Assembly: GCA_946479985.1 (NCBI GenBank)
Contig: CAMLIF010000105.1
Location: 1 to 13,990 of the forward strand
Origin: an uncultured Flavobacteriales bacterium
GTDB lineage: Bacteria; Bacteroidota; Bacteroidia; Flavobacteriales; Crocinitomicaceae
Reading direction: 5' to 3'
DNA: 13,990 nucleotides
This document shows, piece after piece, positions 5,359 through 13,990 of this stretch. Every line of letters starts with the position of its first letter. Position 1 is the first letter of the stretch. Position numbers and translations under genes: made by a program. Under the pieces are notes generated by a model. That model was not told the DNA's origin and did no database searches. It saw nothing but the letters and a program-made list of their open reading frames with translations.

Positions 5359-6207
5359 ATGAAAATGGCGATTTTTGCTTGTATGAGTTGTAGAATTATA
5401 ACGTTTTTTGTTTTTATCTGTACCATTGCAGCGTGTACGAGCAACGGGAAAGAAAAATCTGTACCGCAGAAAGGTGATTTTCATTTTGTGGACAAAAAGT
5501 CGACTGATCGGGGGAATAAGCCAACGGATACCACAGCTTTGAAAAAACAAACGGGTGAAAAATTGTCAATGCAGTACCTGTTGAACGGAAAAGATACTTT
5601 GGTTCCCGTCAATTATTACAATAAGAATATCTTTTGGGAATTGAAATATGCTACCTCGGATAATTTTATGCACCGGGTACTTTACGACACGCTGGAAACG
5701 GTTTACGTGCAGAAGAGTATTGCCAAACGATTGGCTAAATGCCAGGAAAAACTTACCGCTGAAAATCCCGACTACCATTTATTGGTTTACGACGGATTAC
5801 GTCCTTTGAGTGTTCAGTGGGAAATGTGGAAAGCTTTGGATACTATTCCTGTTGTTGAACGCGGAAAGTTTGTGAGCAATCCGAAAAATGGAAGCGTGCA
5901 TAATTACGGGGCGGCTGTCGACATCACAATCTGTGACAACAACCGAAAACCTCTGGATATGGGAGCGGGTTACGACGATATCCGTAAAATTGCCTACCCA
6001 AGTTTAGAAGCACAGTTTTTAGCTTCGGGAGATTTGACAGCAGTTCATATTTCCAACCGGAGTTTGCTGCGGAAAGTCATGAAATCACAGCAATTCAGTA
6101 ATATTCCGAGCGAGTGGTGGCATTTCAACGCTTTTTCGCGACAAACTTGTTCCATGAAGTACAAAATGGTTACCAAAGAATTTCTTCCGGTGCCTGAACA
6201 GAAATGA
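5359..6207 (+). CDS. VanX-type D-alanyl-D-alanine dipeptidase lipoprotein (M15D)
   Basis: This 282-residue zinc dipeptidase is predicted to hydrolyse D-Ala-D-Ala. VanX-family landmarks are all present: YDGLRPLSVQWEMW with Arg148, SVHNYGAAVDI with zinc ligands His181 and Asp188, and SEWWHFNAF with general base Glu252 and zinc ligand His255. The N-terminus carries a lipoprotein signal with IAAC lipobox (Cys26), followed by a low-complexity linker (about 27-70). An in-frame ATG at 5383 would give a shorter signal with the lipobox Cys at 18 and is equally plausible. No vanHA-like ligase or dehydrogenase genes lie nearby, so a role in peptidoglycan turnover or dipeptide scavenging in the periplasm is likelier than glycopeptide resistance. 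That role is inference. Confidence 0.9.
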   Translation: MKMAIFACMSCRIITFFVFICTIAACTSNGKEKSVPQKGDFHFVDKKSTDRGNKPTDTTALKKQTGEKLSMQYLLNGKDTLVPVNYYNKNIFWELKYATSDNFMHRVLYDTLETVYVQKSIAKRLAKCQEKLTAENPDYHLLVYDGLRPLSVQWEMWKALDTIPVVERGKFVSNPKNGSVHNYGAAVDITICDNNRKPLDMGAGYDDIRKIAYPSLEAQFLASGDLTAVHISNRSLLRKVMKSQQFSNIPSEWWHFNAFSRQTCSMKYKMVTKEFLPVPEQK

Positions 6208-6267: not shown

Positions 6268-6723
6268 ATGATTCCAAAGAAATCCAAATACGCCATTCAG
6301 GCCTTAAAGTGCCTAGCTAAGGTTTACAGAGATAAACAACATTTGTCGATTGCAACAATTGCAGCCGAAGAAAATATTCCCAGAAAATTCCTTGAAGCTA
6401 TTTTACTACAGCTTCGAAATGAAGGAATCGTGAGCAGTAAAATGGGGGCAAATGGTGGGTATTACTTAATTAAACATCCGGATGAAATTGTACTGAGCAC
6501 GATTATTCGCTGCACTGGCGGGCCTTTGGCATTATTGCCCTGCGTGAGTTTGAATTACTACGAACCTTGTGCCGAATGTCCCCACGAAGATTTGTGTGGC
6601 TTGCATGAAGTAATGACAGAAGTTCGCGAGGCGAGTATCCATATTTTGTCGAAAACGAGCTTGGCCGATTTAATCCTGCGTGAAAAAAAACTCTACCGAA
6701 AAAAAGAAGCAAAGCAGAAGTAG
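6268..6723 (+). CDS. Rrf2-family transcriptional regulator with cysteine cluster
   Basis: This 151-residue DNA-binding regulator belongs to the family of IscR, NsrR and CymR. The start KKSKYAIQALKCLAKV is the typical first helix. The winged helix-turn-helix spans about 25-70 (LSIATIAAEENIPRKFLEAIL, then the GANGGYYL wing). C-terminal cysteines at 82, 92, 101, 104 and 110 (LPCVSLNYYEPCAECPHEDLC) suggest a 2Fe-2S or other cysteine-based sensor, though the spacing differs from E. coli IscR. The neighbouring cluster makes sulfide, the same theme as CymR, which controls cysteine metabolism in Firmicutes. It likely represses itself and controls the downstream operon through the twin palindromes at 6238 and 6745. 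Its ligand (cluster, O-acetylserine or a CysK complex) cannot be read. Confidence 0.92.
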   Translation: MIPKKSKYAIQALKCLAKVYRDKQHLSIATIAAEENIPRKFLEAILLQLRNEGIVSSKMGANGGYYLIKHPDEIVLSTIIRCTGGPLALLPCVSLNYYEPCAECPHEDLCGLHEVMTEVREASIHILSKTSLADLILREKKLYRKKEAKQK

Positions 6724-6744: not shown

Positions 6745-6763
6745 TCCTACTTAAACGATAGGA
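6745..6763. promoter_or_regulatory. putative Rrf2 operator, copy 2 (upstream of sulfur operon)
   Basis: TCCTACTTAAACGATAGGA is a perfect five-base-arm palindrome, TCCTA-N9-TAGGA. It shares 13 of 19 bases with copy 1, including the whole TCCTACT half. It lies 21 bases past the Rrf2 stop and 26 bases upstream of the proposed -33 element of the sulfur operon. That position suits an activator, or a repressor of a promoter I have not recognised. Confidence 0.6.
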
Positions 6764-6789: not shown

Positions 6790-6820
6790 TTGCAGGTGAG
6801 TTTTTGAGACACTTACTTTG
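6790..6820 (+). promoter_or_regulatory. probable promoter of the sulfate-assimilation operon
   Basis: TTG at 6790-6792, a 20-base spacer and TTACTTTG at 6813-6820 approximate the Bacteroidota promoter (-33 TTG, -7 TAnnTTTG) with one mismatch in the -7 box. Initiation would fall near 6825-6830 and give a leader of about 300 bases before the first structural gene, with room for the attenuator described below. Assigned from consensus only. Confidence 0.5.
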
Positions 6821-6884
6821 CAGCACAAAAAAGAACTCGAAGCAGAAAATCTGGAAGATTGACACTTCGTATTAAAAAAAGAAA

Positions 6885-6935
6885 ATGACAAAGTTCCATA
6901 CAAATATGTATTTCATGTGGTGTTGTATGCCCTAG
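6885..6935 (+). CDS. putative Cys/Met-rich leader peptide
   Basis: This is a 16-residue reading frame, MTKFHTNMYFMWCCMP, ending TAG. Six of 16 residues contain sulfur (four Met, two adjacent Cys), which is striking directly upstream of a sulfate-assimilation operon. The start follows an A-rich stretch (6874-6884), the usual translation-start context in Bacteroidota. The Cys-Cys codons lie 12-7 bases before the stop, and the stop sits in the loop of a hairpin just ahead of an antiterminator/terminator pair. This is the layout of classical leader peptides such as trpL. Cysteine-rich small ORFs that regulate sulfur genes are known in mycobacteria. The peptide product itself probably has no function; ribosome position would be the signal. 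Confidence 0.6.
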   Translation: MTKFHTNMYFMWCCMP

Positions 6936-6972
6936 CGGGCAGTGGAGATGGTATATCAAATTTTGAGTTACG

Positions 6973-7003
6973 GCCCTTCTCCAGTTTTGGAGGGGGCTTT
7001 TTT
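6973..7003 (+). terminator. intrinsic terminator in the operon leader
   Basis: GCCCTTCTCC (6973-6982) pairs with GGAGGGGGC (6989-6997), with one bulge and a loop AGTTTT. Six T's follow (6998-7003), then ATTT. It is a strong Rho-independent terminator placed after the leader ORF and before the first structural gene, in the direction of the operon. It could also terminate the Rrf2 transcript, but it lies 250 bases past that gene and downstream of the putative operon promoter. Confidence 0.85.
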
Positions 7004-7031
7004 ATTTACAATGATGGCGTGTTGAAAGTCA

Positions 7032-7108
7032 GCCACTAATGCACTAATAAAATTTGGTTCACACATAGCGAGTCCGTTAGGTGAAGCAAAGATTCGTGAA
7101 TTCGTGGC
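7032..7108. repeat. imperfect inverted repeat, about 77 bases
   Basis: GCCACTAATGCACTAAT (7032-7048) and ATTCGTGAATTCGTGGC (7092-7108) are inverted copies matching at 14 of 17 positions. The 43 bases between show no coding sense. Phrases like ATTCGTGAATTCGTGGC recur, from memory, in intergenic DNA of Bacteroidota, so this may be a dispersed palindromic repeat. It lies between the leader terminator and the start of the aldo/keto reductase gene. Confidence 0.5.
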
Positions 7109-7127
7109 ATCAAAAAATGCAATAACA

Positions 7128-8009
7128 ATGAAAAATCTATATATAAACGAATTAGGTCCAAAAGTTTCCGCAGCGGTTTACGGCTTTTGGAGATGGAACG
7201 AAACAGATTTCAAAGATCCTTCGAACTTTAATAAAGCAGTTGAATTCACCCGAAGTCTGGGAATCAATACCTACGATCTCAGCCCGGCGTATGCAAACGG
7301 ATTGGTTGAAGAAAATTTCGGGAATCTGCTGAAAAGTGGGGCCTTGAACAGAAGTGAACTGGTTATTTCCAGTAAAGCAGGTGTTCGGCAGTTTTCCGGA
7401 GCAAATGGTTCCGGAACTTACATCGACTTAAGCCCAAAATGGATTTCGGCTAGCGTGGAGGAATCGTTGAAACGACTTCAAACGGAGAAATTGGATATCC
7501 TGATTCTCGAAGGATTTGATTTCCTGTATTCTTTCGAAGAAACAGCTTCAACACTCTTGAAATTGCAACGAAGCGGTAAGATTGGTTACATCGGTGTTTC
7601 AAATTTCAATGTGTTCCAGCAGCGTTTACTTTCAAACTATTTGTCGCAGCCAATTATCACAAATCACATTGAGCTAAACTTGCTGCAAACTGAAGCCCTT
7701 ACCGACGGACGCATTGATTTCATACGTGAACAACACAGTCGTGCTTTAGCCTTTTCGCCTTTGGCCGACGGGCGAATTCTTTTGGGAGAAGACGAGAAAG
7801 CAGTTCGTGTAAGAAGTTTGCTGGAGAAGATCGCCAAAAACTACGATGCAAATATTGAACAGGCTGCCGTAGCCTGGGTTCACCAGCTTGGAGCTTTACC
7901 GATAATTGGAAGTAAGGAAACGCGTAGAATTCAGAATGCGTCAACGGCTTACGACATTAAATTGTCGAAGGAAGATTGGAATTTGTTGTACCAGGAAACT
8001 TTGAAATAA
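7128..8009 (+). CDS. aldo/keto reductase, YdhF-like, atypical active site
   Basis: This 293-residue cytoplasmic protein has the NAD(P)H-dependent aldo/keto reductase fold. Recognisable family parts: VSAAVYGFWRW (13-23), catalytic Asp50 and Tyr55 in YDLSPAYANG, Lys83 in SSKAGVR, then YIGVSNFN, HIELNLLQ, AFSPLADGR and the cofactor-phosphate region PIIGSKETRRIQNA. The catalytic His normally found in a motif like LLLHRPD is replaced: the segment reads LDILILEGFD, with Glu128 in its place. I start it at ATG 7128, because an upstream in-frame GTG at 7104 lies inside the inverted repeat. It is the first gene of the sulfur operon and its stop overlaps the next start (TAATG). Its role in sulfur metabolism is unknown; a redox job is inference from position. 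Confidence 0.88.
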   Translation: MKNLYINELGPKVSAAVYGFWRWNETDFKDPSNFNKAVEFTRSLGINTYDLSPAYANGLVEENFGNLLKSGALNRSELVISSKAGVRQFSGANGSGTYIDLSPKWISASVEESLKRLQTEKLDILILEGFDFLYSFEETASTLLKLQRSGKIGYIGVSNFNVFQQRLLSNYLSQPIITNHIELNLLQTEALTDGRIDFIREQHSRALAFSPLADGRILLGEDEKAVRVRSLLEKIAKNYDANIEQAAVAWVHQLGALPIIGSKETRRIQNASTAYDIKLSKEDWNLLYQETLK

Positions 8010-10141
8010 TGCAGAGTTTCAGAACAGAATACGAGCAAATTCAGGCAGATCGAAAGATTGTTGTGGAAAGAGATGTTCTTGAATTAGGTGAGAAGATTGC
8101 TGCATTCAAAGACGGGAAGATTCCGGACGACAAATTCCGTGCATTACGTTTGGCAAGAGGTGTTTACGGTCAGCGACAGCAAGGTGTTCAGATGATACGT
8201 ATTAAACTTCCGTATGGAAAAGTTACAGCAAATCAGTTGCGGAGAATTGCTGCTGTGAGCGACGAATACAGTACAGGTCGTCTGCACATAACAACACGCC
8301 AGGATATCCAGATTCATTATGTTTCGCTGGATAGAACACCACAATTGTGGGCAGATCTGGAAAAAGACGATGTAACTCTTCGCGAAGCGTGTGGAAATAC
8401 CGTTCGAAATGTTACAGCAAGTGATTTGGCGGGAATAGATCCGAAAGAACTATTCGACGTTACGCCTTATGCCGATTTGGTTTATCGTTACTTTCTGCGG
8501 AAACCTTTTGGCCAGGAACTGGGACGTAAGATCAAAATTGCATTCAGTTCTTCGGATGACGATGATGCGTTTACTTTTATTCATGATTTTGGATTTATTC
8601 CACGAATGAAGGAGATAGACGGACTTCAGGTAAAAGGATTTAAAGTTCTGGTTGGAGGTGGATTAGGTGCGCAACCTTTTCTCGCTAAAACTGCTTTTGA
8701 ATTCCTGGAAGCTGAGAAAATTATTTCGTTCGTTGAAGCAGCAATCCGGGTGTTCGATCGTCATGGAGAGCGCAATTCCCGTAACAAAGCACGTTTGAAG
8801 TTCCTGATTAATTCGATCGGTTTTGAAACATATATTCAATTAGTGAATGAGGAATTGAAGGCAGTTCAATATGAATTAGAAAATGATTTCTTGTTATTTG
8901 ACAATGAAGAAATTGAATCCCCTTACTTAAAGCAGATTTCAATAAATACTTTAATTGAAGAATCACATGATCTCATTTATTCAGATTGGCTAAAGACCAA
9001 TGTAATAGAACAAAAACAGCAAGGATTATTTGCCGCTTACATAAAAGTTCAGCTAGGCGATTTTTATACCAGCCAGGCGAGGGATTTATCAAACTTATTA
9101 GATGATTTCGATTTGCCGGAATTGCGTTTTACGATTGATCAGAACATTCAGCTGCGAAATGTGAAATCTGAAAATCTGAAAGCTGTTTATTTGAAATTGG
9201 GAGAAATTGGACTGAATGCAAATGGCTACAACAGCCTTGGCGATATAACCGCTTGTCCGGGAACCGATACATGTAACCTGGGAATTTCGAATTCGACAAA
9301 TGTGGCTGTTGTGCTGGAAGATCACATTCGTACTGCTTACCCGAAATTATTGGAAGAAACAGGAATTAAGATCAAGATCAGCGGATGTATGAATTCCTGT
9401 GGTCAGCATGGCCTGGCGCATATCGGCTTTCACGGAAGTTCTATAAAAACAAAGGAAGGAACTCTTCCGGCTTTGCAATTGTTACTTGGCGGCGGAAAAT
9501 TGGGTGGAGGAGAAGGTCGTGTTGCTGAAAAAGTAATCAAATTTCCTTCGAAACGCGTGATTCAGCTAATCGATACTATTCTTACTGATTTCGCTGAAAA
9601 TCATAATAATGACGAAGATTTCAACGCGTATTACGATCGGCAAACCACAAACTATTTCTATCAATTGCTGAAACCATTGGCAGATACTTCGAATGTGGCT
9701 TCGACAGATTATGTGGACTGGGGTCACGAAGAGGAATTCGCAACCGCAATTGGAGTTGGAGAATGTGCCGGAGTGCAGATTGATCTGGTGAGAACCTTGC
9801 TTTTTGATGCGGAAGAGAAAGCTGATTCTGCTGCTTTTGCACTTGAAGAAGAACGTTTTGCTGATGCAATCTATTTCGCTTATACAGCTTTAGTTCACGG
9901 AGCAAAAGCCCTGCTGATCGACAAAGGAGTTCGTTGTAATACGCAGGTGAAAATTCTAACGGATTTCGATTTGCATTTCGCCAATGATTTTGGATTCGAT
10001 GAGCACTATTTGTTCTCTGAATTTGTATTGCGAATGAATAAATCCGAACCAACAGAAGAATTCGCGAATGTATATGTGAATCAATTATTGGAAGTGTTTA
10101 ACCGCTTAAAAGAAAGTTATGGAAACGAAGAAAAAAAATAA
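8009..10141 (+). CDS. siroheme sulfite (nitrite) reductase with C-terminal HEPN-like domain
   Basis: The 710-residue enzyme is predicted to reduce sulfite to sulfide with six electrons. The N-terminal ferredoxin-like half holds GQRQQGVQMIRIKLP (54-68), siroheme-contact TGRLHITTRQDIQ (89-101) and GNTVRNV (129-135). The second half has the coupled 4Fe-4S/siroheme ligands: TACPGTDTC with Cys416 and Cys422, and GCMNSCGQHG with Cys460 and Cys464. Residues about 595-705 form an extra helical tail (ALEEERFADAIYFAYTALVHGAKALL) resembling a HEPN domain; it lacks the RX4-6H RNase motif. Nitrite reductases share this fold; sulfite is preferred here because cysH, cysD and siroheme genes surround it. It overlaps the previous gene by 1 base and the next by 23. 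ATG 8009 is chosen over an earlier in-frame codon at 7976 inside the neighbouring gene. Confidence 0.92.
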   Translation: MQSFRTEYEQIQADRKIVVERDVLELGEKIAAFKDGKIPDDKFRALRLARGVYGQRQQGVQMIRIKLPYGKVTANQLRRIAAVSDEYSTGRLHITTRQDIQIHYVSLDRTPQLWADLEKDDVTLREACGNTVRNVTASDLAGIDPKELFDVTPYADLVYRYFLRKPFGQELGRKIKIAFSSSDDDDAFTFIHDFGFIPRMKEIDGLQVKGFKVLVGGGLGAQPFLAKTAFEFLEAEKIISFVEAAIRVFDRHGERNSRNKARLKFLINSIGFETYIQLVNEELKAVQYELENDFLLFDNEEIESPYLKQISINTLIEESHDLIYSDWLKTNVIEQKQQGLFAAYIKVQLGDFYTSQARDLSNLLDDFDLPELRFTIDQNIQLRNVKSENLKAVYLKLGEIGLNANGYNSLGDITACPGTDTCNLGISNSTNVAVVLEDHIRTAYPKLLEETGIKIKISGCMNSCGQHGLAHIGFHGSSIKTKEGTLPALQLLLGGGKLGGGEGRVAEKVIKFPSKRVIQLIDTILTDFAENHNNDEDFNAYYDRQTTNYFYQLLKPLADTSNVASTDYVDWGHEEEFATAIGVGECAGVQIDLVRTLLFDAEEKADSAAFALEEERFADAIYFAYTALVHGAKALLIDKGVRCNTQVKILTDFDLHFANDFGFDEHYLFSEFVLRMNKSEPTEEFANVYVNQLLEVFNRLKESYGNEEKK

Positions 10142-10901
10142 GATCATATTGGTTGGTGCGGGTCCCGGAGATGTGGAATTGATCACATTGAAAGGAGCCC
10201 GTGCGCTTCGAAATGCAGATGTCATTCTCTACGATGCGTTGGTGAACGAAGAATTACTGAATCTTTCACCGAAAGCGATCAAAATTTATGTCGGAAAACG
10301 AATTGGAAATGTGAAACACACGCAGTTGGAAATCAATAAATTGTTGGTTGCTTATGCCCGGAAATATCAAAATGTAGTTCGGTTGAAAGGAGGCGATAGC
10401 TTTGTTTTTGGTCGTGGCTATGAAGAAATTCTTTACGCTCAAAAATTCGGAATTGAAACAGAAGTCGTTCCCGGAATCTCAAGTGTAATTTCAGTCCCCG
10501 CATTGGCTGGAATTCCGGTTACTCATCGCGGATTAAGTAAGAGTTTTCATGTTGTAACGGCAACACTTTCGAACGGCAAATTGAACCCGGAACTGGAACA
10601 TGCGGTTCTTGGAAATGGAACAGTTTTAATCCTGATGGGATTGCATTTGCTACCGGAAATTAGTCGTTTATATATTCAGGCAGGAAAGGGAACACAGAAA
10701 GCAGCCATTATCCTGGATGGCTCTTTACCAACCGTTGAGCATATTGCTGGAACTATTGCCGCTTTACCGTTTCAATTTAGAAATCCACAAAGAAAACCGG
10801 GAATTATTGTAATCGGTGAAGTAGTCGGATTAAAAGACTCCCCGATCAAATTGAGTAAAAAACTGGCAAATCTGTGTATTAACACTTCATTGGCAAACTG
10901 A
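10119..10901 (+). CDS. cobA: uroporphyrinogen-III C-methyltransferase (SUMT)
   Basis: This 260-residue enzyme transfers two methyl groups from S-adenosylmethionine to uroporphyrinogen III, giving precorrin-2, the first dedicated step of siroheme synthesis. Family motifs: ILVGAGPGDVELITLKG (10-26), RLKGGDSFVFGRGYEE (88-103), VVPGISSVISVPALAGIPVTHRG (117-138) and LMGLHLL later. Length matches stand-alone SUMT, unlike the CysG fusion of E. coli. It starts 23 bases inside the sulfite reductase gene and ends 3 bases before the dehydrogenase/TSUP fusion, so translation is probably coupled. Siroheme supply for the preceding reductase is the obvious role; no cobalamin genes are visible here. Confidence 0.95.
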   Translation: METKKKNKIILVGAGPGDVELITLKGARALRNADVILYDALVNEELLNLSPKAIKIYVGKRIGNVKHTQLEINKLLVAYARKYQNVVRLKGGDSFVFGRGYEEILYAQKFGIETEVVPGISSVISVPALAGIPVTHRGLSKSFHVVTATLSNGKLNPELEHAVLGNGTVLILMGLHLLPEISRLYIQAGKGTQKAAIILDGSLPTVEHIAGTIAALPFQFRNPQRKPGIIVIGEVVGLKDSPIKLSKKLANLCINTSLAN

Positions 10902-10904
10902 TTT

Positions 10905-12383
10905 ATGAGTGATAAGGCAAAAAACGAATTGTTCCCGATTTTTCTAAAGACAAACGAACTGGAAGTACTGCTGATTGGCGGAGGAAAGGTTGCGTTGGAA
11001 AAACTGCAGGCCTTGCTTACCAATTCGCCGCGTACAATTGTCCATGTGATTTCGAAGGATTTCAATGACGAATTCCTGGCGTTTGCAGAATTGCATGAAA
11101 ATGTTTCTCTGGAAAGCGGAATTGTAGGTCCGCGCGATTTTCTGAATAAACAATTGGTGATAGCCGCAATCAATGATGTGGAAGATTCTGCAGAATTAAA
11201 AACCCTGGCCAACGAAGCAGGAATTTTGTTCAATGCAGCCGATAAACCTGATTTGTGCGATTTCTACCTGGGATCGGTAGTTCGGAAAGGAAACCTCAAA
11301 ATCGGGATTTCGACTAACGGGAAATCACCTACAATTGCGAAACGGTTGAAAGAAGTGCTTGATGAAAATCTACCGGATGAGATCAATGATTCGTTGGATC
11401 AGTTGAATAAATTACGGAATCATCTGTCTGGCGATTTCAATAAAAAAGTAAAGCAGCTCAATAAAACAACCGAAGTGCTGACTGCAAAGATCGAACGTCC
11501 GTGGTATTTGTTTTCACCCTGGAAATTGCTGGGTTACGCCGCCGGAATTTTAGGAATCATGATCAGCGGGCACGTTTTCTTTTCGCTCGTTCCGCCGGAT
11601 CTTATCTTTTCCAAAGCTTCGGAAACCATTGCATCGCTTGATATGATGTTCGTTTGGTTCATGGTTGGCGGTTTCATTGCTCAAATGATCGACGGCGCGC
11701 TCGGAATGGCTTATGGAGTGAGTGCTACCACGTTTTTACTTTCTCTCGGAATTTCACCGGCTGTAGCAAGTATGAGTGTTCATGCTTCCGAGATTTTTAC
11801 AAGCGGAGTTTCCGGAATTATGCATTTACGCTTCGGTAATGTCAATAATCGTTTGTTTAAGTCGCTTGTAATTCCCGGAGTGATAGGAGCAATCATCGGT
11901 GCGTATTTGCTGACCGAATTAGAAGATTACAACCAATACATCAAACCAATTGTGAGCTCGTATACGCTTTTCCTGGGTTCTTTGATTATTTACAAAGTCC
12001 TTCGGAAAAAGCAGGCACGCAAAAAAGTAACAAAAGCCGGCTGGCTGGCAACCATGGGCGGATTTCTCGATTCCATTGGCGGCGGCGGTTGGGGACCAGT
12101 TGTTTCTTCAACCCTGATTGCAAGAGGAAAACATCCGCGAATGATCATTGGTTCCGTGAACCTGGCTGAATTTTTCGTTTCGCTGGCAAGTTCGTTCACT
12201 TTTTTCTCAATCATCGGTGCTTCGGCGTGGAAACCAATTGTCGGGCTGATTTTGGGTGGTGTTTGTGCTGCGCCAATTGCGGCTTATTTGTCCTCAAAAC
12301 TGAATATCAAAGCAATGATGCTCTTTGTTGGAATTGTAGTGATTATCCTGAGTTTGAGAAATTTAATCATGTTATTGTTTTAA
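10905..12383 (+). CDS. fusion: siroheme synthase N-domain plus TSUP (TauE/SafE) membrane domain
   Basis: This 492-residue protein joins two families. Residues about 8-195 match the CysG N-domain (precorrin-2 dehydrogenase / sirohydrochlorin ferrochelatase): Rossmann loop LLIGGGKVALEK (22-33), FNAADKPDLCDF with Asp113 near the expected catalytic Asp, and ISTNGKSPTIAKRL (135-148). Residues about 205-492 are a multi-helix membrane domain of the TauE/SafE sulfite-exporter type, with VGGFIAQMIDGALGMAYGVSAT, SVHASEIFTSGVSG and the second-repeat motif MGGFLDSIGGGGWGPV. The first half would finish siroheme synthesis from the preceding enzyme's product; the second half may carry sulfite or another sulfur anion. 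The frame is open across the junction, so it is a real fusion. It lies 3 bases after the SUMT gene and 4 before cysH. Transport direction and substrate are unknown. Confidence 0.92.
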   Translation: MSDKAKNELFPIFLKTNELEVLLIGGGKVALEKLQALLTNSPRTIVHVISKDFNDEFLAFAELHENVSLESGIVGPRDFLNKQLVIAAINDVEDSAELKTLANEAGILFNAADKPDLCDFYLGSVVRKGNLKIGISTNGKSPTIAKRLKEVLDENLPDEINDSLDQLNKLRNHLSGDFNKKVKQLNKTTEVLTAKIERPWYLFSPWKLLGYAAGILGIMISGHVFFSLVPPDLIFSKASETIASLDMMFVWFMVGGFIAQMIDGALGMAYGVSATTFLLSLGISPAVASMSVHASEIFTSGVSGIMHLRFGNVNNRLFKSLVIPGVIGAIIGAYLLTELEDYNQYIKPIVSSYTLFLGSLIIYKVLRKKQARKKVTKAGWLATMGGFLDSIGGGGWGPVVSSTLIARGKHPRMIIGSVNLAEFFVSLASSFTFFSIIGASAWKPIVGLILGGVCAAPIAAYLSSKLNIKAMMLFVGIVVIILSLRNLIMLLF

Positions 12384-12387
12384 GATC

Positions 12388-13074
12388 ATGCTAAAAGAAA
12401 TTGAAGCTTTAGACCAAGAAAATATTGCCGGATTCCTGGGAAGAATTGCGGCTCTTCCAAATGTGAAAGCAGCGTTTTCAACCAGTTTGAGTTGGGAAGA
12501 TCAGGTGGTGACTCATCATATTCTCTCACAGCAATTACCCATTCGGATTTTCACGCTGGATACCGGCAGATTGTTCGCCGAAACGTACAGTGTTCTGAAT
12601 TCGACCAGGGAACGATACAAATCAGACATAGAAGTTTTCTTTCCGCGACATGAAGCAGTTGAGAAACTAGTGACAACAAAAGGCCCGGTCAGTTTCTACG
12701 AATCATTGGAAAACAGAAAAGAATGCTGTTTCATTCGAAAAGTTGAGCCTTTGAATCGAGCATTGGAAAATGTGAATATCTGGATCACGGGTTTGCGGGC
12801 TGAACATTCTGAAAATCGACAGGAACTGAAAGTAGTGGAGTGGGATGAACAACGGCAGCTTGTGAAAGTGAATCCGCTGGCAAAATGGAGTTTAGAGGAA
12901 GTAAAAGCTGAGATCAAACGCTTCAATATTCCAACAAACGCCCTGCAGGATAAAGGATTTGTAAGCATTGGGTGTCAACCCTGTACAAGAGCCATTCGTG
13001 ACGGAGAATCGTTTCGGGCCGGCCGGTGGTGGTGGGAAGACAATTCGAAAAAGGAGTGTGGATTACATAGTTAA
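12388..13074 (+). CDS. cysH: adenylyl-sulfate (APS/PAPS) reductase
   Basis: This 228-residue cytoplasmic enzyme reduces activated sulfate to sulfite using thioredoxin or glutaredoxin. Visible features: FSTSLSWEDQV (30-40) as the substrate loop, FTLDTGRLF (55-63), Cys113-Cys114 in KECCFIRKVEPL, GLRAEHSENR (135-144), Cys196 and Cys199 in GCQPCTRAI, and the catalytic Cys224 in ECGLH. The CC plus CxxC pairs are the 4Fe-4S ligands of APS reductases and of bifunctional enzymes; classical E. coli CysH lacks them. APS is thus the likely substrate, so no APS kinase would be needed for this route. The gene starts 4 bases after the siroheme/TSUP fusion. Its C-terminus is complete. Confidence 0.95.
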   Translation: MLKEIEALDQENIAGFLGRIAALPNVKAAFSTSLSWEDQVVTHHILSQQLPIRIFTLDTGRLFAETYSVLNSTRERYKSDIEVFFPRHEAVEKLVTTKGPVSFYESLENRKECCFIRKVEPLNRALENVNIWITGLRAEHSENRQELKVVEWDEQRQLVKVNPLAKWSLEEVKAEIKRFNIPTNALQDKGFVSIGCQPCTRAIRDGESFRAGRWWWEDNSKKECGLHS

Positions 13075-13251: not shown

Positions 13252-13990
13252 ATGGACTATTTAGATCAATTAGAAGCAGAAGCAATTTACATTTTGCGCG
13301 AAGTAGCAGGGCAGTTCGACAGGCCGGCCTTGTTGTTTTCCGGTGGAAAAGACAGTATTTGCCTGGTGCATTTGGCTTTGAAAGCCTTTCGTCCGGGGAA
13401 ATTTCCTTTTCCGCTGGTGCATGTAGATACAGGGCACAATTTTCAGGAAGCACTCGATTTCCGGGATAACCTGGTGAAAGAGTTGGGAGAAAATCTCATC
13501 GTCAGGAATGTTGGAGACACCATCCGGCAAAAGAAACTGCAGGATGCAAAAGGGAAATTCCCAAGCAGAAATGCCTTGCAGACATATACTTTATTGGCTG
13601 TCATCGAAGAATTTGAATTCGACGCCTGTATTGGCGGTGCGCGGCGCGACGAAGAAAAAGCACGGGCAAAAGAACGTGTTTTCTCGGTTCGAGATGAGTT
13701 TGGGCAATGGGATCCGAAGTTGCAGCGACCGGAATTGTGGAGTATTTACAATGGTAAAATCGACAAAGGAGAAAATGTGCGCATATTTCCAATCAGCAAC
13801 TGGACAGAACTGGATGTTTGGAATTATATCAAACGCGAAAAGATTGACTTGCCGTCTATATACTTTACTCATGAACGCGAATGTGTGCTCACCGAAAACG
13901 GGCAATTGATGTCGAACAACGAGTTCCTGAATCTCGATGAAACAGATCTTCTGGTAACGAAAAAAGTACGCTACAGAACGGTTGGAGATA
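13252..13990 (+). CDS. cysD: sulfate adenylyltransferase subunit 2 (partial, 3' end missing)
   Basis: The frame is open from ATG 13252 to the window edge: 246 codons of a family of roughly 300. CysD, with the GTPase CysN, converts sulfate and ATP to APS. The PP-loop LFSGGKDSICLVHL is at 28-41, followed by VHVDTGHNF, RNALQTYTLLAVIEEF and the conserved GGARRDEEKARAKER, then FPISNWTELDVW. The start MDYLDQLEAEAIYILREV is typical. It lies 177 bases after cysH, behind the GC-rich repeat, so it may share the operon transcript or have its own start site. cysN should follow outside the window. Confidence 0.96.
   Translation, partial: MDYLDQLEAEAIYILREVAGQFDRPALLFSGGKDSICLVHLALKAFRPGKFPFPLVHVDTGHNFQEALDFRDNLVKELGENLIVRNVGDTIRQKKLQDAKGKFPSRNALQTYTLLAVIEEFEFDACIGGARRDEEKARAKERVFSVRDEFGQWDPKLQRPELWSIYNGKIDKGENVRIFPISNWTELDVWNYIKREKIDLPSIYFTHERECVLTENGQLMSNNEFLNLDETDLLVTKKVRYRTVGD

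Follow-up and report, generated by a model that had tools for sequence, protein, structure and literature searches.

A candidate leader-peptide attenuator with tandem cysteine codons ahead of the sulfate-assimilation operon in Bacteroidota

The operon and its leader region

In the stretch of 13,990 nucleotides from an uncultured Flavobacteriales bacterium that was analysed here (hereafter "the window"), a gene for an Rrf2-family transcription regulator is followed by a promoter, a short leader and a series of genes for sulfate assimilation, all in the same direction (Table 1). The last of these genes runs off the window and is presumably cysD, a name given from its position. The sulfite reductase shows a weak C-terminal HEPN match (23.7 bits against a cut-off of 22), and a neighbouring ORF combines a siroheme-synthase-like domain with a sulfite-exporter-like TauE/SafE domain.

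Upstream of the leader, two sequence elements are of regulatory interest. The inverted repeat TCCTA-N9-TAGGA is a candidate operator, and the Rrf2 regulator is its possible binder. This dyad was also found upstream of five leaders outside the Fluviicola genus set described below (8/44 leaders in total), and is rare elsewhere, with 12 copies in the 975,523 bases of the related loci L001-L080. It is followed by what we take to be a Bacteroidota-type promoter, from which transcription would start a few nucleotides downstream, near position 6827; the ATG of the leader ORF would then lie about 58 nt after the start.

Table 1. Features of the leader and the operon in the window and, in the last line, in one Pontibacter-type relative
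Feature	Position	Strand	Basis or remark
Rrf2-family transcription regulator gene, upstream of leader	6268-6723	+	Pfam Rrf2, E 1.3e-32
Dyad TCCTACTTAAACGATAGGA, candidate operator, upstream of promoter	6745-6763	+	TCCTA-N9-TAGGA
Promoter, presumably Bacteroidota-type	6790-6820	+	TTG (6790-6792), 20 nt, TTACTTTG (6813-6820)
Leader peptide ORF, MTKFHTNMYFMWCCMP and stop	6885-6935	+	A-rich stretch 5' of ATG
Tandem Cys codons TGT TGT, proposed stall site	6921-6926	+
Small hairpin TGCCC-tagc-GGGCA	6928-6941	+	Directly 3' of Cys codons; stop codon inside loop in the window
Leader ORF stop codon TAG	6933-6935	+
Antiterminator 5' arm TGGAGATGG	6943-6951	+	Complementary to CCTTCTCCA at 6975-6983
Intrinsic terminator	6972-7003	+	Hairpin 6972-6998, T-run to 7003
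Aldo/keto reductase, first gene of controlled operon	7128-8009	+	Pfam Aldo_ket_red, E 6.5e-42
Sulfite reductase	8009-10141	+	Pfam NIR_SIR, NIR_SIR_ferr
Uroporphyrinogen-III methyltransferase-like gene (siroheme)	10119-10901	+	Pfam TP_methylase, E 7.3e-44
Siroheme-synthase-like and TauE/SafE membrane domain fusion	10905-12383	+	Pfam NAD_binding_7, Sirohm_synth_M, TauE
CysH-type PAPS/APS reductase	12388-13074	+	Pfam PAPS_reduct, E 5.6e-42
CysD-like sulfate adenylyltransferase subunit, runs off window	13252-13989	+	Pfam PAPS_reduct, E 3.1e-40
SAM-I riboswitch and poly-Cys ORF	L027:5384-5614		Same place in the other eight loci

The leader itself had been described in a first-pass annotation as a 16-codon ORF with adjacent Cys codons, followed by a small hairpin, an antiterminator and a terminator, and all of these elements were confirmed at the coordinates given there. 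In the window, the antiterminator comprises 6 + 2 pairs with one U-U mismatch (6943-6951 with 6975-6983), its 3' arm doubling as the 5' arm of the terminator, which sits between the leader ORF and the first structural gene. The calculated folding energies are -16.8 kcal/mol for the terminator and about -12.0 kcal/mol for the antiterminator. Over its full length, the leader has a more stable fold than its dinucleotide shuffles (z -2.19; 5/200 shuffles as good), and a terminator scan of the window returned two overlapping versions of the leader site, compared with 1.0 +/- 1.0 sites in shuffled sequence; taken by itself, the pairing of the antiterminator does not beat shuffles (z -0.78, p 0.23). 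An Rfam search of the window yielded no match above the gathering score, and a known riboswitch was rejected as the identity of the window's leader on these grounds; specifically, the SAM-I riboswitch RF00162 was found neither in the window nor in L001 or L002. Evidence beyond chance from the window by itself is modest, and the strong evidence is comparative.

Occurrence and conservation in related loci

For comparison, the best 80 of 558 confirmed sulfite reductase loci were taken as relatives (L001-L080), giving 81 sources together with the window. Nearly all of the 80 titles name Bacteroidota, with a best identity of 70%; a few, given to MAGs, refer to other phyla and seem to be wrong. In many loci, a first scan revealed terminators with a short ORF containing CC, CCC, MCMCCM or CCWM some tens of bases upstream of them, and sometimes two Cys leaders in series (L034, L059, L062, L067, L072). 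When terminators preceded by a short ORF with CC were flagged, 46/98 were of this kind in the zone of 1.3 kb ahead of the reductase versus 36/957 elsewhere in the same 81 sources; the 46 include two filter misfires (MDQLPCCHV in the rrf2-like gene of L001 and a spurious second terminator for the window's ORF), the 36 probably include real leaders (two in L072 and one in L060), and, since the 81 loci are related, the counts are not independent and the p-values given here are guides only.

Under a strict filter, the combination of CC ORF and terminator is present in 40/81 sources, the window included, and the doublets recur before terminators in loci titled Flavobacteriales, Chitinophaga, Pedobacter, Mucilaginibacter and Adhaeribacter. 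The other 41/81 sources gave no leader by this filter, some of them having no upstream DNA or weaker matches. Examples in which no Cys-pair ORF was found within the last 700 nt are L003, L005, L009, L039, L050, L053, L056, L057, L061, L065, L071, L075 and L079, whose operons may start further up. The claim of the first-pass annotation, a cysteine attenuator before a sulfate-assimilation operon, gains support from this comparison across the 81 sources.

At closer range, the genus set of G002 (L002, Fluviicola chungangensis) comprises 14 genomes, 11 with the reductase and three without, and a leader is present in 10/11 reductase-bearing genomes. Eight of these have the window's arrangement (L001/L081, L002/L085, L082, L083, L084, L086, L087 and L088), L094 and L098 have a CCC leader, with the dyad also seen in their sequences, and in L100, the eleventh, no leader was found. 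Nine aligned 5' regions keep the dyad (9/9 rows), the promoter TTG-N20-TTACTTTG, of which both the TTG and TTACTTTG are invariant, the Cys-Cys-Met ORF and the terminator. Cys-Cys-Met with an open frame from the ATG is found in 11/11 Fluviicola-type rows, in which the Cys codons vary synonymously between TGC and TGT. L088 carries a 4-base insertion that disrupts the frame 3' of the Cys codons, with the RNA arm retained, a pattern that is expected if coding constraint ends at Cys and RNA constraint continues. The stop codon follows the Cys pair at a distance of 2 codons in the window, 9 in the closest relatives, where it falls inside or just after the antiterminator arm, and 13 in L088. Of the conservation that the first-pass annotation had proposed to look for in relatives, the Cys codons and the pairings were borne out, whereas the position of the stop codon is not conserved.

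Covariation in the terminator also speaks for an attenuator. Among 10 relatives, 93% of the cells of the terminator pairs are paired (1/500 shuffles as high; 49-65% in slid controls), and 10 cells have changed on both sides (again 1/500 shuffles as high); the number of pairs with both sides changed, three, is not unusual (164/500 shuffles). A hairpin of 5-7 bp directly 3' of the Cys codons is present in the window, L002, L083, L084, L087 and L088, with differing stems; L086 is identical to L087 at this site, and in L001 and L082 the hairpin has only 3 bp. This comparison was made by inspection of folds computed without the terminator's 3' strand; full-length folds of L086 and L087 favour another pairing at the site. 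The small hairpin may serve to pause the polymerase.

A distinct arrangement is found in the Pontibacter-type loci (Table 1), in which a SAM-I riboswitch scoring 60.6-75.5 bits lies before the reductase (L018, L019, L021, L022, L023, L027, L030, L040 and L069), that is, in 9/9 Pontibacter/Botryobacter loci examined with Rfam. Rfam was run on the window, these nine loci and eleven others; the rest of L001-L080 was screened for SAM riboswitches with a core motif only. The ATG of a poly-Cys ORF (e.g., MCCCCCCCSC), Cys-rich at its end, lies 2-8 nt behind the end of the riboswitch, and some of the loci have a second CC or CCCC ORF closer to the reductase; the strict filter flags a terminator behind the poly-Cys ORF in L019 only. 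Met is scarce in the riboswitch-associated ORFs, making up 3.6% of the last 25 residues versus 14.4%, a comparison in which L027 was counted by its second ORF (4 Met), a misassignment, and in which nine related loci were treated as separate and amount to one evolutionary contrast. The SAM-I riboswitch perhaps gates translation of the poly-Cys ORF, and in this one clade it would supply the Met-branch input that is given elsewhere by Met codons.

Depending on the locus, the leader stands in front of the aldo/keto reductase, the sulfite reductase or, in L072, a cysH-like gene, whichever seems to be first; it is tied to the operon rather than to one gene. In L072 (2694-3024), two CC leaders lie ahead of the cysH-like gene, apparently the operon's first, and L060 (7750-7876) has a further leader, with CCCC, between the sulfite reductase and a cobA-like gene, the genes of both loci being identified from their similarity to ORFs of the window. 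In L062 (5325-5768), two tandem Cys leaders with terminators are followed by a tRNA-Cys gene and then by the sulfite reductase; the tRNA-Cys gene (5696-5768) starts about 10 nt behind the second leader's terminator. This is a single case, though a fitting one, and a search across all 80 loci (L001-L080) gave only two tRNA genes.

Other sulfur genes were examined in the 14 genomes of the G002 genus set, with cysK over the family cut-off in 0/14, the OAH/OAS-sulfhydrylase model in 0/14 and cysS in 13/14. Terminators with a CC ORF numbered 9/77 at cysK-model loci, 2/119 at OAH/OAS-sulfhydrylase loci and 1/41 at cysS loci, and 11/64 at the reductase loci in the same scan. The rate at cysK-model loci exceeds the background of 36/957. 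Most of the CC ORFs at the three other kinds of loci are located on the opposite strand, within the gene or downstream of it, and the single flagged terminator at the cysS loci is on the strand opposite to the gene; in L115 and L127, a CC ORF lies upstream on the gene's strand, with no flagged counterpart in orthologous loci. As no convincing leader was found at cysK-like, sulfhydrylase-like or cysS loci in this genus set, a role as a general sulfur-gene element was rejected; with the caveat of L115 and L127, its occurrence in these genomes appears limited to the sulfate-assimilation operon.

Codon usage, arm pairing and ribosome geometry

When peptides were truncated to 30 residues, the strongest enrichment among the 20 amino-acid doublets ahead of terminators in the pre-reductase zone was that of Cys (46/98 versus 34/957, odds ratio 24), followed by Met (26/98 versus 41/957, odds ratio 8). 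Milder enrichments of Leu, Asn, Tyr, Ile, Asp and Thr doublets might fit AT-rich intergenic DNA. Around the CC, ATG occupies 134/829 in-frame codon slots (16%) compared with 10/875 and 12/875 in the other two frames, and this enrichment in frame only argues for translation as well as for Met as a second coded input; the suggestion of the first-pass annotation that Met is perhaps sensed, too, is strengthened by it.

The 5' arm of the antiterminator was compared with the 5' strand of the terminator by duplex tests rather than by a formal count of antiterminator pairs, because the register shifts by one base between relatives. The arm beats shuffles at p<0.05 in 24/46 leaders; the remaining 22/46, the window included, fail to do so. 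For 38 less redundant leaders (the 46 minus the two misfires and L013, L014, L015, L031, L043 and L048), the arms paired with their own terminators sum to -483.6 kcal/mol versus -372.8 +/- 15.3 kcal/mol when terminators are re-dealt among the leaders, and 0/20,000 deals reach the observed sum. Taken leader by leader, the match is weak, with the own terminator ranking in the best 5% for 7/38, in the best 10% for 12/38 and in the best half for 32/38. The mutual exclusion of antiterminator and terminator is kept in the relatives, as a family-wide result that is not significant for the window alone. Together with the doublet counts and the frame bias of ATG, the pairing of arms with their own terminators makes a chance origin of the Cys ORF unlikely.

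In these leaders, the median distance from the Cys pair to the beginning of the arm is 17 nt, and the arm's end lies a median of 2 nt beyond the stop codon. With a ribosome footprint that we assumed from toeprint distances, a ribosome at the stop touches the arm in 36/38 leaders (null 26.6 +/- 2.5), and in 32/38 (null 19.7 +/- 2.8) it does so while a ribosome at the Cys codons leaves the arm free. Such an arrangement, in which the position of the ribosome would decide whether the arm is free, has the geometry of ribosome-mediated attenuation. In the window, the arm begins at the eighth base after the stop codon, and because the stop comes early, a ribosome there would cover only the arm's first nucleotides, i.e., partially. 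The first-pass annotation had regarded it as a weakness that the small hairpin abuts the antiterminator without overlapping it, leaving the blocking to occupancy of the stop codon; the counts given above agree with such occupancy, and since the blocking can be done by the ribosome that stands at the stop codon, on the arm or next to it, and not by the small hairpin, this weakness is resolved.

Interpretation and relation to known systems

We consider it highly probable that the leader is a ribosome-mediated transcription attenuator which makes the sulfate-assimilation operon respond to the supply of charged tRNA-Cys, and probably to that of charged tRNA-Met as well. The basis for this reading consists of the parts present, their recurrence, the frame-specific enrichment of Cys and Met, the matching of arms and terminators, and the geometry across relatives. 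Transcription start, translation, stalling, read-through and the Met input, as we infer them from the sequences, would combine as follows. RNA polymerase would start near 6827 and make the leader, on which a ribosome would begin at 6885. With Cys plentiful, the ribosome would pass both Cys codons and reach the stop, where it would stand on or against the arm at 6943; with the arm blocked, the terminator (6972-7003) would form and transcription would end. With Cys short, the ribosome would stall at 6921-6926, leaving the arm past its leading edge free to pair with 6975-6983, so that no terminator would form and the operon would be transcribed.

Several other explanations have to be weighed against this one. 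A terminator between genes of the same direction needs no further role, and the gap at 7003-7128 leaves room for a promoter; the terminator might, hence, just end the rrf2 transcript, with the Cys ORF a product of chance and the operon promoter downstream of 7003. We hold this to be very improbable in view of the conserved promoter upstream of the ORF, the recurrence of Cys doublet and terminator even behind an upstream gene on the opposite strand (L042, L078), and the match of the arms to their own terminators. The conserved dyad beside the promoter and the adjacent rrf2 gene have been mentioned, and they would suit an operon controlled by the Rrf2 regulator alone, the leader being a relic. 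However, the dyad accompanies just 8/44 leaders, the codon and pairing signals are family-wide, and Rrf2 control and attenuation can coexist; there is only the slightest chance, in our estimate, that the regulator acts alone.

The composition of the leader peptides invites two further readings. CCM, MCMCCM and poly-Cys stretches are like copper-binding motifs, and a nascent Cys/Met-rich peptide that binds a soft metal or senses redox could set read-through; yet the genes downstream serve sulfate assimilation rather than metal handling, a tRNA-Cys gene lies behind the same kind of leader in L062, and the residues encoded at the stall point would not yet have left the exit tunnel, which leaves this reading scarcely credible. 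It is unlikely, too, that the leader senses Met supply, or sulfur amino acids generally, more than Cys: the Met doublets and the in-frame ATG codons speak for it, as does the scarcity of Met codons in the one clade with the SAM riboswitch, but Cys doublets are more enriched than those of Met, and the Pontibacter-type leaders are poly-Cys with hardly any Met.

Within the attenuator reading, a broader proposal, to which we give somewhat less than an even chance, is that of a widespread two-input sulfur attenuator in Bacteroidota, taking the form of a mixed Cys/Met leader in general and of a SAM-gated poly-Cys ORF in the Pontibacter clade. If this is true, many lineages, including that of the window, sense Cys and Met with one leader peptide, and the Pontibacter clade has a riboswitch controlling a leader peptide, which suggests one Cys and Met logic met in two ways. 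The attenuator would give Bacteroidota, whose control of sulfur assimilation is little described in the open-licence papers searched, a ribosome-based cysteine sensor that is testable in culturable species, and it offers an easy rule by which leader peptides missed in annotation can be recognised from sequence.

Classical attenuators are the leader-peptide systems of the trp, his, leu and thr type. With these, the leader shares codons for the end product in the leader ORF, mutually exclusive antiterminator and terminator, and a biosynthetic operon downstream; it differs in the coded residue, Cys (with Met), and in its Bacteroidota host, and, unlike in the classical cases, a separate protector hairpin is not always evident because the arm often overlaps the region of the stop codon. 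Actinobacterial polycysteine leader ORFs have reportedly been treated, as cited in PMC9094748, by Canestrari in 2020. On the taxonomic range of leader peptides, an extract of a study of 2010 states that, to the knowledge of its authors, they had previously been shown only in Proteobacteria and Actinobacteria, and adds a Firmicutes case of its own (PMC2965389). For Bacteroidota, leader-like sORFs are mentioned in an extract of PMC7366714, and leader-peptide attenuation before amino-acid operons is described for Flavobacterium psychrophilum, cysteine not being named in the relevant extract (PMC9723704). In the open-licence papers searched, no cysteine attenuator described for Bacteroidota was found, in agreement with the first-pass annotation, which knew of none of this type.

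As excerpted, PMC8632094 describes uORFC-8-2, a tandem-Cys uORF with a terminator before cysS in Rhodobacterales; it shares with the present leader the adjacent Cys codons of the short ORF and the intrinsic terminator behind it, whereas the leader described here precedes the sulfate-assimilation operon in Bacteroidota. Poly-Cys leader ORFs stand before cys operons in Mycobacterium and other Actinobacteria (PMC1262725, in extract), and regulatory poly-Cys leaders in mycobacteria are cited in an excerpt of PMC9094748. Short ORFs with Cys runs ahead of cys operons are shared with these leaders; however, the extract of PMC1262725 reports no conserved terminator hairpins in Mycobacterium and suggests Rho, in contrast to the conserved intrinsic terminator and matched antiterminator of the window-type leader. 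The leaderless ORF without a conserved terminator that marks actinobacterial polycysteine attenuators is not what was found in the window. With the SAM-I riboswitch (RF00162), finally, the window's leader, itself without a match to that family, has in common the control of sulfur metabolism by RNA, and in the Pontibacter-type relatives the riboswitch lies directly beside poly-Cys ORFs.
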